A DNA stretch of 64,000 bases from an archaeon. GTDB lineage: Archaea > Thermoproteota > Nitrososphaeria > Nitrososphaerales > Gagatemarchaeaceae. This document shows, piece after piece, positions 50,266 to 61,528 of the stretch. The translations under genes were made by a program, and so were the position numbers. The stretch is from assembly GCA_021827865.1 (NCBI GenBank), contig JAKAUC010000013.1, positions 434,001 to 498,000 on the forward strand. The letters are read 5' to 3'. The notes beneath the pieces were generated by a model. That model saw only the letters and a list, made by a program, of their open reading frames with translations, was not told the origin of the DNA and made no database searches. Within the stretch, counting starts at the first letter, position 1, and every line of letters starts with the position of its first letter.

Positions 50266-52314
50266 ATGGCGACCCTGGCCAGTGGAAAGCTCTCCGAACA
50301 GTTCGAGGACTTCCTGAAGTCCGTGTTGGACAGGAGTGGGAACGCGGTCTACAGGGGCAAGATTTCGCAGCTCATAGCGACCGAGGGGAAGTCCCTGGTC
50401 GTCGACTTCGGCGACCTCCTGCGGTACAACAACGACCTGGCGAACAGGTTGCTTCTCGAGCCTGATTCGTCTCTTGCGTCCTTCAAGATCGCCGCCTTCG
50501 AGACGATGAGGAGCGAGAACGCTCTCTACGCCGACAGGGTCAAGCGGGAGCTGACGGTCAGGCTGCGAGGGCTCCCTGACCTGGTCCCCCTAAGGAGGGT
50601 GGATACGTCATACATAGATCACATGCTCGCAATCTCTGGGATGGTCGTGAGGACGTCAGAGCTGAGGCCGATGATGACGGAGGCGGCATGGGTCTGCCCT
50701 AGCGGCCACCTCACCTACCAGGGGCAGGACGACCTGATCCTCAAGCGCCCCCCGAAGTGCGAGCTTTGCGGAGAGGCGAAGAGCTTCGAGCTCGACAAGA
50801 AGCGCTGCAGGTTCGTCGATTTCCAGGTTCTGAGGGTCCAGGAGCTCCCGGAGGAGCTCCCGCCCGGCCAGCTCCCTCAGTTCTTCGACGTCAACGTGGA
50901 AGGGGACATCGTGAACATGGCGCGGCCCGGCGACAGGGTGGTGCTCACCGGGGTGGTTAGGGCGGTCCCCGACTACACCCTCGGCCAGGTGAGGACGAGG
51001 CTGTTCAGGTCTCAGGTCGACTGCAACCAGGTCGAAGTGAAGGGGAAGGAGCCAGACCAGGTGGTCGTTTCGAAGGAGGACGAGGAGTTGATCAGGAAGA
51101 TTGCAAGCGTCCCCGACGCCTACGAGAGGCTCATCAACTCCATCGCCCCGGTCATCCTGGGGCACCAGCAGGAGAAGGAGGCGATACTGCTCCTGCTCGC
51201 CGGAGGGAGCGCCACCCTCCTCCCCGACGGGACGAAGCTGAGGGGGGACATCAACGCCCTTTTCGTCGGCGACCCCGGTACGGGGAAGTCTGAGCTGCTA
51301 AAGTTCGCGTCGCAGGTAGCGCCTCGCGGGCTCTATGCGTCTGGGAGAGGCACCACCGCTGCCGGCCTCTCGGCGGCCGTGATACGGGAGAAGAACGTTC
51401 TCATGCTCGAAGCCGGCGTCGTCGTCCTGGCAGACCTCGGCATAGCGGCCATAGACGAGTTCGAGAAGATGAAGCCAGATGACAGGACGGCCCTCCACGA
51501 GATGATGGAGCAGCAGACGGTCACCATCGCGAAGGGCGGGATATACGCCACGCTCAACGCGAGGACCGCCATCCTGGCGGCCTGCAACCCGGTGCTCGGG
51601 CGGTACAACCCGTTTCAGAACCTCATCGAGAACATCGGGACCCTCCCTATACCGCTGCTGACTAGGTTCGACATCATATTCGTATTCAGGGACCAGCCAT
51701 CGCCGGCGGACGACGAGAGGCTGGCTAGCCACATACTGTCCGTTCACGCGCGACGGTCATACAGCACGCCCCCGCCCATCGAATTCAGCCTCCTCAAGAA
51801 GTACCTCACCTTCGCCAAGAAGATCTCCCCGACGCTGACGAAGGCTGCCATGGACCGGATCAGGGAGTTCTACCTCGAGCTGAGGAAGTCGAGCGGAGCG
51901 GAGGACTCGATCCCCCCCACCCTTAGGACGCTGGAGGCGTTGATCAGGATCTCAACGGCCAGGGCTAGGGTGCTTCTCAGGGACGAGGTGACCGAGGAAG
52001 ACGCGCTCTCGGCCATCGCCCTGATGAACAGGATGGTTGAGGACATACTCACCGACGCGGCTACGAAGAAGACGGACTTTGGGATTCAGCTGGGCAAGCC
52101 CGCGGGGGAGACCAAGAACCTGAGGTCGGCCCTGGAGGTGCTGAAGAGCCTTGAGGGCCCTGAGAAGAAGCCCGTGGAGCGGAAGCTGTTCAAGGAGGAG
52201 CTCGTGAAGGCGAAGTTCACCGACGAAGACGCTGAGAAGATGATCAGGACCATGTTCAGGGAGGGGATGGTCTACGAGTCTAAACCAGGGTTCATCCGGA
52301 GGCTGGGCTCCTAG
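50266..52314 (+). CDS. mcm: Minichromosome maintenance helicase MCM
   Basis: ALFVGDPGTGKSELLKFASQVAPRGLYASGRGTTAAGLSAAV; GIAAIDEFEKM; ARTAILAACNPVLGRYNP; LLTRFDIIFVFRD. Confidence 0.97.
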   Translation: MATLASGKLSEQFEDFLKSVLDRSGNAVYRGKISQLIATEGKSLVVDFGDLLRYNNDLANRLLLEPDSSLASFKIAAFETMRSENALYADRVKRELTVRLRGLPDLVPLRRVDTSYIDHMLAISGMVVRTSELRPMMTEAAWVCPSGHLTYQGQDDLILKRPPKCELCGEAKSFELDKKRCRFVDFQVLRVQELPEELPPGQLPQFFDVNVEGDIVNMARPGDRVVLTGVVRAVPDYTLGQVRTRLFRSQVDCNQVEVKGKEPDQVVVSKEDEELIRKIASVPDAYERLINSIAPVILGHQQEKEAILLLLAGGSATLLPDGTKLRGDINALFVGDPGTGKSELLKFASQVAPRGLYASGRGTTAAGLSAAVIREKNVLMLEAGVVVLADLGIAAIDEFEKMKPDDRTALHEMMEQQTVTIAKGGIYATLNARTAILAACNPVLGRYNPFQNLIENIGTLPIPLLTRFDIIFVFRDQPSPADDERLASHILSVHARRSYSTPPPIEFSLLKKYLTFAKKISPTLTKAAMDRIREFYLELRKSSGAEDSIPPTLRTLEALIRISTARARVLLRDEVTEEDALSAIALMNRMVEDILTDAATKKTDFGIQLGKPAGETKNLRSALEVLKSLEGPEKKPVERKLFKEELVKAKFTDEDAEKMIRTMFREGMVYESKPGFIRRLGS

Positions 52315-52413: not shown

Positions 52414-55400
52414 GTGGATGAGGTCAAGATCCCCGACGAGCTGGCCCGGTACATGAAGGACAAGGGCATCACCGAGCTCTACCCGCCCCAGGAGCAGGCG
52501 GTCCTTGCGGGGCTGCTCGATGGGAAGAGCCTGGTTGTGTCGGCGCCCACGGCTTGCTACGACGCGCAAACGGAAGTGTTGACAAAAAATGGTTGGAAGC
52601 TCTTCGAAGACACGGTTTCAGACGAAATCGTCCTCTCGATGAACCCGCTCACCTTCAAGATGGAATACGTCAAGGCAGTGGGAAAGGTTGAGCAAGAATA
52701 CACCGGCAGAATGGTCTCTGTGAAAGGAAAGGAGATTGACTTCAGGGTCACTGAGAACCATAACATGTTCGCATGCAGCATGAACGACATGCGAAGAACG
52801 CCGGACCGTGCCCGTTCAATCCATCCGCCGGCCAGTTACAGTCTCAAGCCCGCCATAGGAATCACCAGCACGTGGAGATTCAAGTCGGGCGGCATCTGGA
52901 CTGGGAAGCGCAAGTCCCAATTTCTCATTCCTCCGTTTAGGGCAAGGAGGAAGGGCAAGCATCATGCCGGAAACGTCTTGCCCGGCATCAAAGTGAGGGC
53001 AGAAGACTGGTTGAACTTTTTGGGATGGTACATGGCTGAAGGGAACACAAAGCGGAGAGGCGGCTCCTATGAAGTGACATTGTGTCAAGTCAAGAATCCG
53101 GCACTGGTCCGAGAAGCCATGGAAAGATTAGGCGTCGGCGCGGTTCACAAGACGGGAAGCAAGAATCATCTTCACTTTAGCATCTACAACCCTCAGTTGG
53201 GGTCGTATCTCTTGCGCTTTGGCCTTGCATACGAGAAGTACGTCCCTGAATACGTCAAAGAGCTGCCCCCCGACCAGATCGAGATCTTCCTCCATTCCTA
53301 TAGATTGGGTGACGGGAATCGTGGAAGAGATGGCACAAGCCCAGTCTTCGGAACAACCTCAAAGAAGCTCGCAGACGATATCCAGGAGCTTCTGCTCAAG
53401 TCAGGGACCAGCAGTTCGGTGAGGAACAGGGGACTCGCGAAATCCCATGAGATGCCGGACGGACATACAATCGTCTCCAAACATCCATTTTACGAAGTGC
53501 CCGGCAGGAGATGCTCGGAACATGGTGTCGACCCGAGGAAGCCGAGCAAGCCGGTCATAGAAAGAACTGTAGGAGAAACCGTCTACTGCCTTACCCTTCC
53601 GAAATATCACCTCCTCTATGTCCGAAGAAATGGAAAAGCATTCTGGTGCGGCAATTCTGGAAAGACCCTCCTCGCCCTGATGTCGGCCTACCTCAGGACG
53701 AAGGTGGAGAGGAAGAAGGTGGTGTACCTGGCGCCTCTGAGGGCGCTTGCCTCGGAGAAGTACTCCGAGTTCTCGGAGCTGACGAAGTTCGGGATACGGA
53801 CGGCCATCTCGACCGGCGACTACGACTCGAGCGGCGAATCTCTCGGCAGGGCGGACATCATCGTCCTGACCAACGAGAGGTTCGACTCGGTGATGAGGCA
53901 CAGGGTGTCCTGGGTCAACTCTGTGGGGCTCTTCGTCGCGGACGAAGTGCACCTGGCGGGGAACGACAGGAGAGGACCGACCCTCGAGATGATCCTCACG
54001 AAGGTCATCCACCTCGGCCTGAACGCGCAGCTCCTGGCACTTTCTGCGACAATCAGCAACGCGAAGTCGATCGCGGAGTGGCTGCACGCCGTCCCGGTGG
54101 AGCTTGACTGGCGGCCGGTCCCGCTCAAGGAGGGGGTCTACGACTACGGGAGGGTCGTTTTCTCCGGCGGCGAAGAGATCCAGATCCCGAGGTCGACCTA
54201 CGGCTCCCCCATCGACGTCGCCATGGACACCGTGAAGGGGGGCGGCCAGGCGCTGATCTTCGCCAGCACCAGGAGGAGGGCGGTGAGCCTGGCCACCAGG
54301 GCCGCGGAGGTGACCCAGAGTCGCCTGACACCCGAGGAGAAGAAGGCGACGTCCGAGGCCTCGCGGAGGATCCTGGGCTCGGGGGAAGAGACCAGCCTCG
54401 GCAGGCTCCTCGCGGAGGTGGTGGCGAAGGGGTCTGCCTTCCACCACGCCGGGCTCGAGCCCGAGCACAGGAGGATAGTGGAGGAATACTACCGGGCCAG
54501 GGCGATCAAGCTCCTGGCCGCCACCCCGACCCTCGCCGCAGGGGTCAACCTCCCCGCACGGCGGGTGGTGATAGCCGATATGACGCGCTACGACGCCGAG
54601 AGGGGAGGGAACGCGGAGATCTCGGTCCTGGAGTACCGGCAGATGGCCGGCAGGGCGGGGAGGCCGCAGTACGACGACCATGGCGAGACGGTGATGGTCC
54701 CACCCCCCTCTCAGCCCGCCGCGGACTTCCTCGAGCACTATACGAAAGAGCCCCCGGAGCCGATCAAGTCCAGGCTGTCTAACGAGGCGGCGATGCGGTC
54801 GCACACCCTGGCAACGATAGCCACGGGGAGGGGCCTCTCGAAGGGGGACCTGGACAGCCTGTTCAGGGAGACGCTGCTGGCCAGGCAGGCGGGCCAGGCG
54901 GAGGTCTCGAGGCTGACCGAGAAGGCCCTGGGCTACCTCCTGTCAGAAAGGCTGCTCGAGTCCCACGGGGGGCTGTTCTACGCGACTGATTTTGGGACGA
55001 GGGTCTCTGTCCTCTACGTCGACCCGGTCACGGCCGTCATGTTCCGGAACGCAGTAAAGCGTGCTGAGCCCGGCAGGGACTACACCGCAGGGCTGCTGCA
55101 CCTGGTCGCCTCGGCGCCGGACTTCGAGCCGAAGTTCCCGCTGAGGAGCAAAGACTACGAAGATGCCATGGCGTTCATGGAGGAGCACGCGGCGGAGATG
55201 CTGGAGAGGCACACGACGAAGGAGTTCTCGGACTACGACAGGGCCCTGCAGGATGTGAGGAGCGTCATGGCGCTGCACGGTTGGATAGACGAGTGGAGGG
55301 AGGAACAGCTGCTCAGCAGGCTTGGGGTGGAGCCGGGGGACATGCACAGGGCGGTTGACAACGCGGACTGGCTTCTTCATGCGCTGGGGGAGCTCTGCAA

Positions 55401-55653
55401 GCTGTTCAAGATGCCGGACATGGTGAGGCAGGCGGACCTGCTGAGGAGGAGGGTGGCGAGCGGCGTCGGGGAGGAGCTCGTCGAACTCACGGCCCTCAGC
55501 GGGGTCGGGAGGGTGAGGGCGCGCGCCCTGTACTCGGCCGGGTTCAGGACGCTCGAGGATCTGAAGGAGGCGCCCGCCGAGAAGCTTGCCATGGTGGACA
55601 AGGTGGGGGCGTCGGTCGCGAGGAAGATCAAGGAACAGGTGAAGAGGCACTGA
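52414..55653 (+). CDS. hel308: Hel308-family DNA helicase, intein-containing
   Basis: IPDELARYMKDKGITELYPPQEQAVLAGLL...SAPTA|intein|SGKTLLALMSAYL; FVADEVHLAGNDRRGPTLEMILTK; HHAGLEPEHRRIVEEYYR; EYRQMAGRAGRPQYD. Confidence 0.95.
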   Translation: MDEVKIPDELARYMKDKGITELYPPQEQAVLAGLLDGKSLVVSAPTACYDAQTEVLTKNGWKLFEDTVSDEIVLSMNPLTFKMEYVKAVGKVEQEYTGRMVSVKGKEIDFRVTENHNMFACSMNDMRRTPDRARSIHPPASYSLKPAIGITSTWRFKSGGIWTGKRKSQFLIPPFRARRKGKHHAGNVLPGIKVRAEDWLNFLGWYMAEGNTKRRGGSYEVTLCQVKNPALVREAMERLGVGAVHKTGSKNHLHFSIYNPQLGSYLLRFGLAYEKYVPEYVKELPPDQIEIFLHSYRLGDGNRGRDGTSPVFGTTSKKLADDIQELLLKSGTSSSVRNRGLAKSHEMPDGHTIVSKHPFYEVPGRRCSEHGVDPRKPSKPVIERTVGETVYCLTLPKYHLLYVRRNGKAFWCGNSGKTLLALMSAYLRTKVERKKVVYLAPLRALASEKYSEFSELTKFGIRTAISTGDYDSSGESLGRADIIVLTNERFDSVMRHRVSWVNSVGLFVADEVHLAGNDRRGPTLEMILTKVIHLGLNAQLLALSATISNAKSIAEWLHAVPVELDWRPVPLKEGVYDYGRVVFSGGEEIQIPRSTYGSPIDVAMDTVKGGGQALIFASTRRRAVSLATRAAEVTQSRLTPEEKKATSEASRRILGSGEETSLGRLLAEVVAKGSAFHHAGLEPEHRRIVEEYYRARAIKLLAATPTLAAGVNLPARRVVIADMTRYDAERGGNAEISVLEYRQMAGRAGRPQYDDHGETVMVPPPSQPAADFLEHYTKEPPEPIKSRLSNEAAMRSHTLATIATGRGLSKGDLDSLFRETLLARQAGQAEVSRLTEKALGYLLSERLLESHGGLFYATDFGTRVSVLYVDPVTAVMFRNAVKRAEPGRDYTAGLLHLVASAPDFEPKFPLRSKDYEDAMAFMEEHAAEMLERHTTKEFSDYDRALQDVRSVMALHGWIDEWREEQLLSRLGVEPGDMHRAVDNADWLLHALGELCKLFKMPDMVRQADLLRRRVASGVGEELVELTALSGVGRVRARALYSAGFRTLEDLKEAPAEKLAMVDKVGASVARKIKEQVKRH
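52555..53655 (+). mobile_element. Intein with LAGLIDADG-type homing endonuclease-like motifs inserted in hel308 Walker A
   Basis: Cys1 CYDAQTEVLTKNGWKLFED; TENHNMF block B; LNFLGWYMAEGN and IEIFLHSYRLGDGN DOD-like motifs; VYCLTLPKYHLLYVRRNGKAFWCGN then Ser+1. Confidence 0.95.
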
Positions 55654-61390: not shown

Positions 61391-61410
61391 GTTCTAAGCG
61401 AATCCTAATC

Positions 61411-61503
61411 CGGGCCCGGTGGGATTCGAACCCATGGTCTCCGAGGGCGATGCCTCTTCAGCTCCGAAGGCTGACGCCTTAATCCGTGCTAGGCTACGGG
61501 CCC
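61411..61503 (-). tRNA. tRNA-Arg (anticodon TCG), with about 17 extra nt in the variable region
   Basis: GGGCCCG-TA-GCCTAGCACGGATTAAGGC-G-TCAGC CTTCGGA GCTGA-[AGAGGCATCGCCCTCGGAGACC]-ATGGG TTCGAAT CCCAC-CGGGCCC-G; cloverleaf pairs by eye. Confidence 0.85.
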
Positions 61504-61528
61504 ACTGAGGCCGGCCGGCGCCGGCTAA

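Follow-up and report, generated by a model that had tools for sequence, protein, structure and literature searches.

The archaeal hel308 gene in the window (the whole 64,000-nucleotide stretch of DNA analysed here) is interrupted in its Walker A motif by a 367-aa insert that is best explained, with high confidence, as a class 1, full-length (Hint and LAGLIDADG) homing intein that splices from its precursor and that, as a probably active endonuclease, circulates among related soil archaea. The element is of a known kind, found here in a little-studied host lineage. The occupied, empty, and doubly occupied hel308 genes of this family of uncultured soil archaea form a natural series for homing, and the related inteins, in which the textbook penultimate His is uniformly replaced by Gly, form a set. 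Two points are mildly surprising: the uniformity of the penultimate Gly and how many intein sites Hel308 has.

The interrupted hel308 gene

Translation of the open reading frame at 52414-55653 (+) gives a 1,079-aa Hel308 helicase interrupted in frame by an insert that occupies exactly 52555-53655, i.e., 367 codons without stops. The frame reads ...VVSAPTA/CYDAQTEVLTKNG...RRNGKAFWCGN/SGKTLL... (slashes mark the junctions), and joining the flanks without the insert yields a 712-aa protein with an intact APTASGKT; the sequence-only reading, which had proposed this excision, was exact in coordinates, length, and junction residues. The features of the gene are:

52414..52554, + strand: Hel308 N-extein, 47 codons, GTG start, ending ...VVSAPTA; orthologues run straight into SGKT
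52555..53655, + strand: intein with Hint splicing domain and LAGLIDADG homing endonuclease, 367 aa (profiles, homologue alignment, fold)
52555..52593, + strand: block A, CYDAQTEVLTKNG, with the Cys1 nucleophile at 52555-52557
52738..52770, + strand: block B, DFRVTENHNMF, with TxxH as Thr66 and His69
53020..53046, + strand: block C, first LAGLIDADG motif, LGWYMAEGN, with catalytic-type Glu162
53290..53319, + strand: block E, second LAGLIDADG motif, LHSYRLGDGN, with catalytic-type Asp253; LAGLIDADG_3 at residues 244-302
53581..53655, + strand: blocks F and G, VYCLTLPKYHLLYVRRNGKAFWCGN, with terminal Asn367 and penultimate Gly366; TIGR01443 intein_Cterm at residues 343-360
53656..55653, + strand: Hel308 C-extein, beginning SGKTLL (Ser+1) (translation, profiles, structure matches)

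The host protein is identifiable as Hel308 by its SF2 motifs, by domain 4 and HhH, and by end-to-end similarity to known Hel308. In particular, alignments of the 712-aa protein to four solved Hel308 structures, 2zj2, 2p6r, 2va8, and 9b15, run from end to end (E 1e-140 to 1e-128), and the C-extein contains DEVH, SAT, motif VI QMAGRAGRP, archaeal helicase domain 4, and HhH. Left unspliced, the ORF falls below the NCBIfam Hel308 equivalog cut-offs and seems to have lost its P-loop, a point of relevance to annotation. Intein-less orthologues, a comparison that the sequence-only reading had called for, continue directly from PTA to SGKT, and the PTA/SGKT flanks are kept in 26 empty (intein-free) alleles of the family. 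Other genomes carry related inserts at this very codon boundary and many relatives have empty sites, which excludes a chance origin.

Directly upstream of hel308 is an MCM helicase gene (50266-52314) that appears uninterrupted; in other archaea, the MCM helicase gene is a frequent intein target. Elsewhere in the window, a tRNA-Arg(TCG) call at 61410-61504 is, at 95 bases, longer than usual and may hold an intron.

Splicing and endonuclease elements

The insert contains the intein splicing blocks that had been read from its letters. It has Cys1, TxxH, a terminal Asn followed by Ser+1, and a match to the NCBIfam intein C-terminal splicing model TIGR01443 above cut-off (17.9 vs 15.6). Block A residues C1, D3, T6, L9, T10, and G13 and block B residues T66 and H69 are invariant in our alignment of homologues (A2, 31 members). 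Pfam splicing-domain models give no match for the 52555-53655 intein; Pfam Intein_splicing and Hint_2 and the NCBIfam intein N-terminal model match other members of the alignment. Position 1, which may be Cys, Ser, or Thr in a class 1 intein, is Cys1; the C-terminal residue is N367, followed by Ser+1; and exact removal restores a conserved host protein, as the empty PTA/SGKT alleles attest. Cys1, T66xxH69, N367, and Ser+1 thus assign the intein to class 1. Class 3 inteins lack Cys1 and carry Trp B:12, Cys F:4, and Thr G:5. Here Cys1 is present, B:12 is Met, and G:5 is Cys, so the class 3 signature is absent; a cysteine, Cys345, follows VY in block F.

An AlphaFold2 model of the intein (pLDDT 90.5, pTM 0.90) and its Foldseek matches to 7qsu, 1vde, and 2cw7 point to a Hint fold. 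The best PDB structural matches are all intein-endonucleases, namely the TliVMA intein (7qsu; E 6e-18), PI-SceI (1vde), PI-PkoII (2cw7), and PI-PfuI (1dq3). By sequence, PI-PkoII (2cw7) is the closest relative of known structure, and a profile from the 31-member alignment also finds the TliVMA inteins 7qsu and 7qss. Single-sequence prediction of the full precursor was uninformative (pLDDT 36). The splicing motifs, the predicted fold, and the empty sites support the earlier assignment of an intein in the Walker A motif of Hel308.

The endonuclease domain is of the LAGLIDADG (DOD) type, with two helices bearing acidic residues and a fold matching I-DmoI and PI-SceI. The DOD-like motifs picked out beforehand, LGWYMAEGN and HSYRLGDGN (within LHSYRLGDGN), have both acids, and the proposed profile check for LAGLIDADG gave 27.8 bits for LAGLIDADG_3 (Pfam PF14528), against a curated cut-off of 22.5. 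Each of the four intact motif I alleles of Hel308 retains AEG in block C and GDG in block E, and both endonuclease acids (E162 and D253) are conserved across alleles 58-66% identical. Once released, the intein probably works as an endonuclease.

The residue before the terminal Asn is Gly366 (WCGN/S) rather than the usual, though not obligatory, class 1 penultimate His, a feature that the sequence-only reading missed. G366 and N367 are invariant, with Gly in 31/31 full-length homologues, from nine insertion sites in Nitrososphaerota proteins. All five phage or plasmid homologues examined end GN; the G-N ending is partly circular in the viral set, since one search pattern contained the Gly, and 21 of the 24 viral cases parsed without that pattern still end GN. 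The mycobacteriophage Bethlehem RDF intein belongs to class 1, has Gly in the penultimate position, and splices, and replacing this Gly by His slowed splicing (PMC5050341); splicing without a penultimate His is also cited in PMC4031507. Because such splicing is known, Gly366 is a variant and not a disqualification, and, together with the lack of a Pfam splicing-domain match, it puts the efficiency of splicing in question. A speculative reading, to which we give little credence, is that Nitrososphaerota and phages share a broad intein lineage whose Asn cyclisation permanently does without penultimate His (invariant end R-R-x-G...G-N) and which has moved into new host proteins again and again; the altered chemistry may tune its splicing, and Hel308 would be switched on post-translationally.

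Distribution, mobility, and alternative explanations

The window comes from a 1.94-Mb MAG (G000) with 7.5% contamination, and the locus is 100% identical in the Nitrososphaerota MAG MAS4_bin.35. The motif I Hel308 intein is present in 7/46 genomes of the family (G000, G008, G174, G005, G116, G183, and G126). The first three are of the same population or species, and G008 and G000 are not independent samples, being 100% identical over 17.9 kb. G005 is a single-contig genome with the same insertion; the G126 copy (L068, contig C55) is damaged by an out-of-frame deletion that removes block C, which means that the gene is broken or that the MAG is in error. The Gagatemarchaeaceae genome paper (PMC10640624) lists SubAcS15-15, a relative that has this same intein, so the family of the Nitrososphaerota host is very probably Gagatemarchaeaceae. 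At E 1e-40, 398 sampled genomes of the phylum gave no further motif I copy in Hel308, and other strong matches are at other insertion sites. In a sample of the class, consisting by our reading mostly of ammonia-oxidising relatives, most Hel308 genes are uninterrupted over about 710 aa. A viral scan with four Hel308 alleles revealed no close viral source of the intein; a scan with a broad alignment revealed many distant viral inteins (28-36%), none of them beside a GK P-loop motif. Our searches of the literature, chiefly of papers outside subscription journals, turned up no account of an intein at the motif I site of Hel308. The Hel308-like helicase of Methanocaldococcus jannaschii contains an intein.

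The insert has a lower GC content than the flanking Hel308 extein, as had been noted (52% vs 66%; 0.522 vs 0.659), and a lower GC3 (0.638 vs 0.902); across the four motif I inteins GC3 runs from 0.56 to 0.64, against 0.80-0.89 in their exteins. Low GC requires care as a sign of foreign origin, since within the family all inteins measured at sites I and V of Hel308 have a lower GC content than the genes that host them, and it is not by itself proof of transfer. Between G000 and G005, identity is 75% for exteins and 58% for inteins; the closest inteins, those of G005 and G116 (66%), are in different genera. The intein tree places G005 with G116, whereas the extein tree places G005 with G000; swapped topologies are rejected at p 0.046 (intein; only marginal) and p 0.011 (extein), a conflict that rests on four intact alleles. 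Carriers are set apart on the extein tree, corresponding to four state changes or, alternatively, to a single gain and nine exact losses, and nearest relatives are without the intein. As homing alleles should, the inteins group according to insertion site rather than genome. The patchy distribution, the intein/extein tree conflict, and the intein-free nearest relatives thus support horizontal homing well; patchiness, tree conflict, and foreign composition likewise bear out the earlier description of a horizontally acquired selfish element.

The strongest alternative, clearly less probable than an active homing intein and still deserving of weight, is that splicing is intact and the endonuclease no longer works, the distribution reflecting vertical inheritance and chance loss. 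Consistent with this alternative, no co-conversion tract is visible next to the insert, the extein diverging evenly along the gene from its nearest relatives, and relatives show decay. The G126 allele has lost block C out of frame, and the inteins L050 and L051, in a PurD-like ATP-grasp protein, have intact splicing ends and LAGLIDADG acids that look lost, which in sequence is likely endonuclease decay. However, the four intact Hel308 alleles keep both catalytic acids and the whole LAGLIDADG fold, the intein and extein trees conflict, and vertical descent requires the nine exact losses.

For the homing intein, we infer splicing, DNA cleavage, homing, and precursor inactivity as follows. Translation of the whole gene would yield a 1,079-aa precursor with a split Walker A motif that could not bind ATP, so the helicase would be inactive until splicing, as the sequence-only reading supposed. 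Homing proceeds by double-strand break repair: the freed intein would cut intein-free hel308 alleles at the P-loop codons and be copied in during repair of the break, and so would circulate among related soil archaea. In splicing itself, by the class 1 steps (PMC4031507), Cys1 would take the N-extein through an N-S acyl shift, Ser+1 would receive it, and Asn367 would cyclise without a penultimate His, releasing the 712-aa Hel308 with an intact APTASGKT loop.

It is improbable that the intein is retained because it keeps Hel308 inactive and splices only on stress or DNA damage. Splicing is known to be conditional in P. horikoshii RadA (PMC5790916) and mycobacterial DnaB (PMC6195587), the rate of splicing can be altered by a penultimate residue other than His (PMC5050341), and the intein lies in the P-loop of a repair helicase; most close relatives, however, are without it, and its sequence indicates no sensor. 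An assembly chimaera or binning artefact, for which the contamination of the source MAG might speak, is hardly credible given the open frame across both junctions and the same junction in the differently named MAGs MAS4_bin.35, MAS5.bin16, SubAcS15-15, TA_8, and the single-contig G005. A conserved accessory domain that stays in the mature Hel308, named beforehand as what would overturn the intein assignment, can be dismissed with equal assurance: the insert is in frame and without stops, but it would split Walker A, it is absent from close orthologues, and it has the fold and residues of Hint and LAGLIDADG.

Other inteins and known systems

Within the order, inteins interrupt Hel308 at no fewer than three sites (motifs I, V, and VI). 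The motif V site, ATPTL/(intein)/S[AS]GVNLP, contains inteins of 392-395 aa ending VVHN (L066 and L069-L073, in G183, G022, G024, G004, G010, and G019; also L109 and L114, in G132); G183 is doubly occupied, at motifs I and V. Residue +1 at motif V is Ser in every carrier and Ala in empty alleles except G106 (Ser, AGT), a sequence pattern that suggests a substitution accompanying invasion. The motif VI site, QM/(intein)/CGRAGRP, contains inteins of 462-463 aa (L074 and L075) in G036 and G030, which belong to other families of the order. Further inteins in G000 (L077-L081; host-protein names read from sequence) are in a VPS4-like AAA ATPase P-loop, geranylgeranyl reductase-like and methionine adenosyltransferase-like proteins, a B-family DNA polymerase (GC-rich, ending GQ/S), and RadA.

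Among known systems, the TliVMA intein (VMA-b site; 7qsu, 7qss; PMC8966425) is the best structural and profile match and is likewise an archaeal Hint and LAGLIDADG intein in an ATPase P-loop, but in another host protein and with 15% identity over the structural alignment. The haloarchaeal MCM-a intein (PMC10643990) resembles the Hel308 intein as a patchy homing intein in a helicase Walker A motif, with several sites per gene; it differs in its host, MCM, and in being inserted after the Walker A lysine, whereas the Hel308 intein precedes Ser-Gly-Lys-Thr. At site d of MCM, the residue at +1 determines which alleles are open to invasion (PMC10643990). The Bethlehem RDF intein (PMC5050341) shares class 1 and penultimate Gly, a likeness by description and not by sequence, and is in a phage host gene. 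Inteins of Prevotella phage Lak-A1, Corynebacterium phage P1201 (thymidylate synthase), and Gordonia phage GMA6 (terminase) have the same length and block pattern, align over residues 1-367, begin CY or CF, and end G-N, but are 26-33% identical and in other host proteins. Finally, aLhr2 inteins (PMC8301817) likewise have LAGLIDADG, interrupt the RecA domains of an archaeal SF2 helicase, and are scattered over the tree, but they are in Lhr rather than Hel308 and mostly in RecA2.
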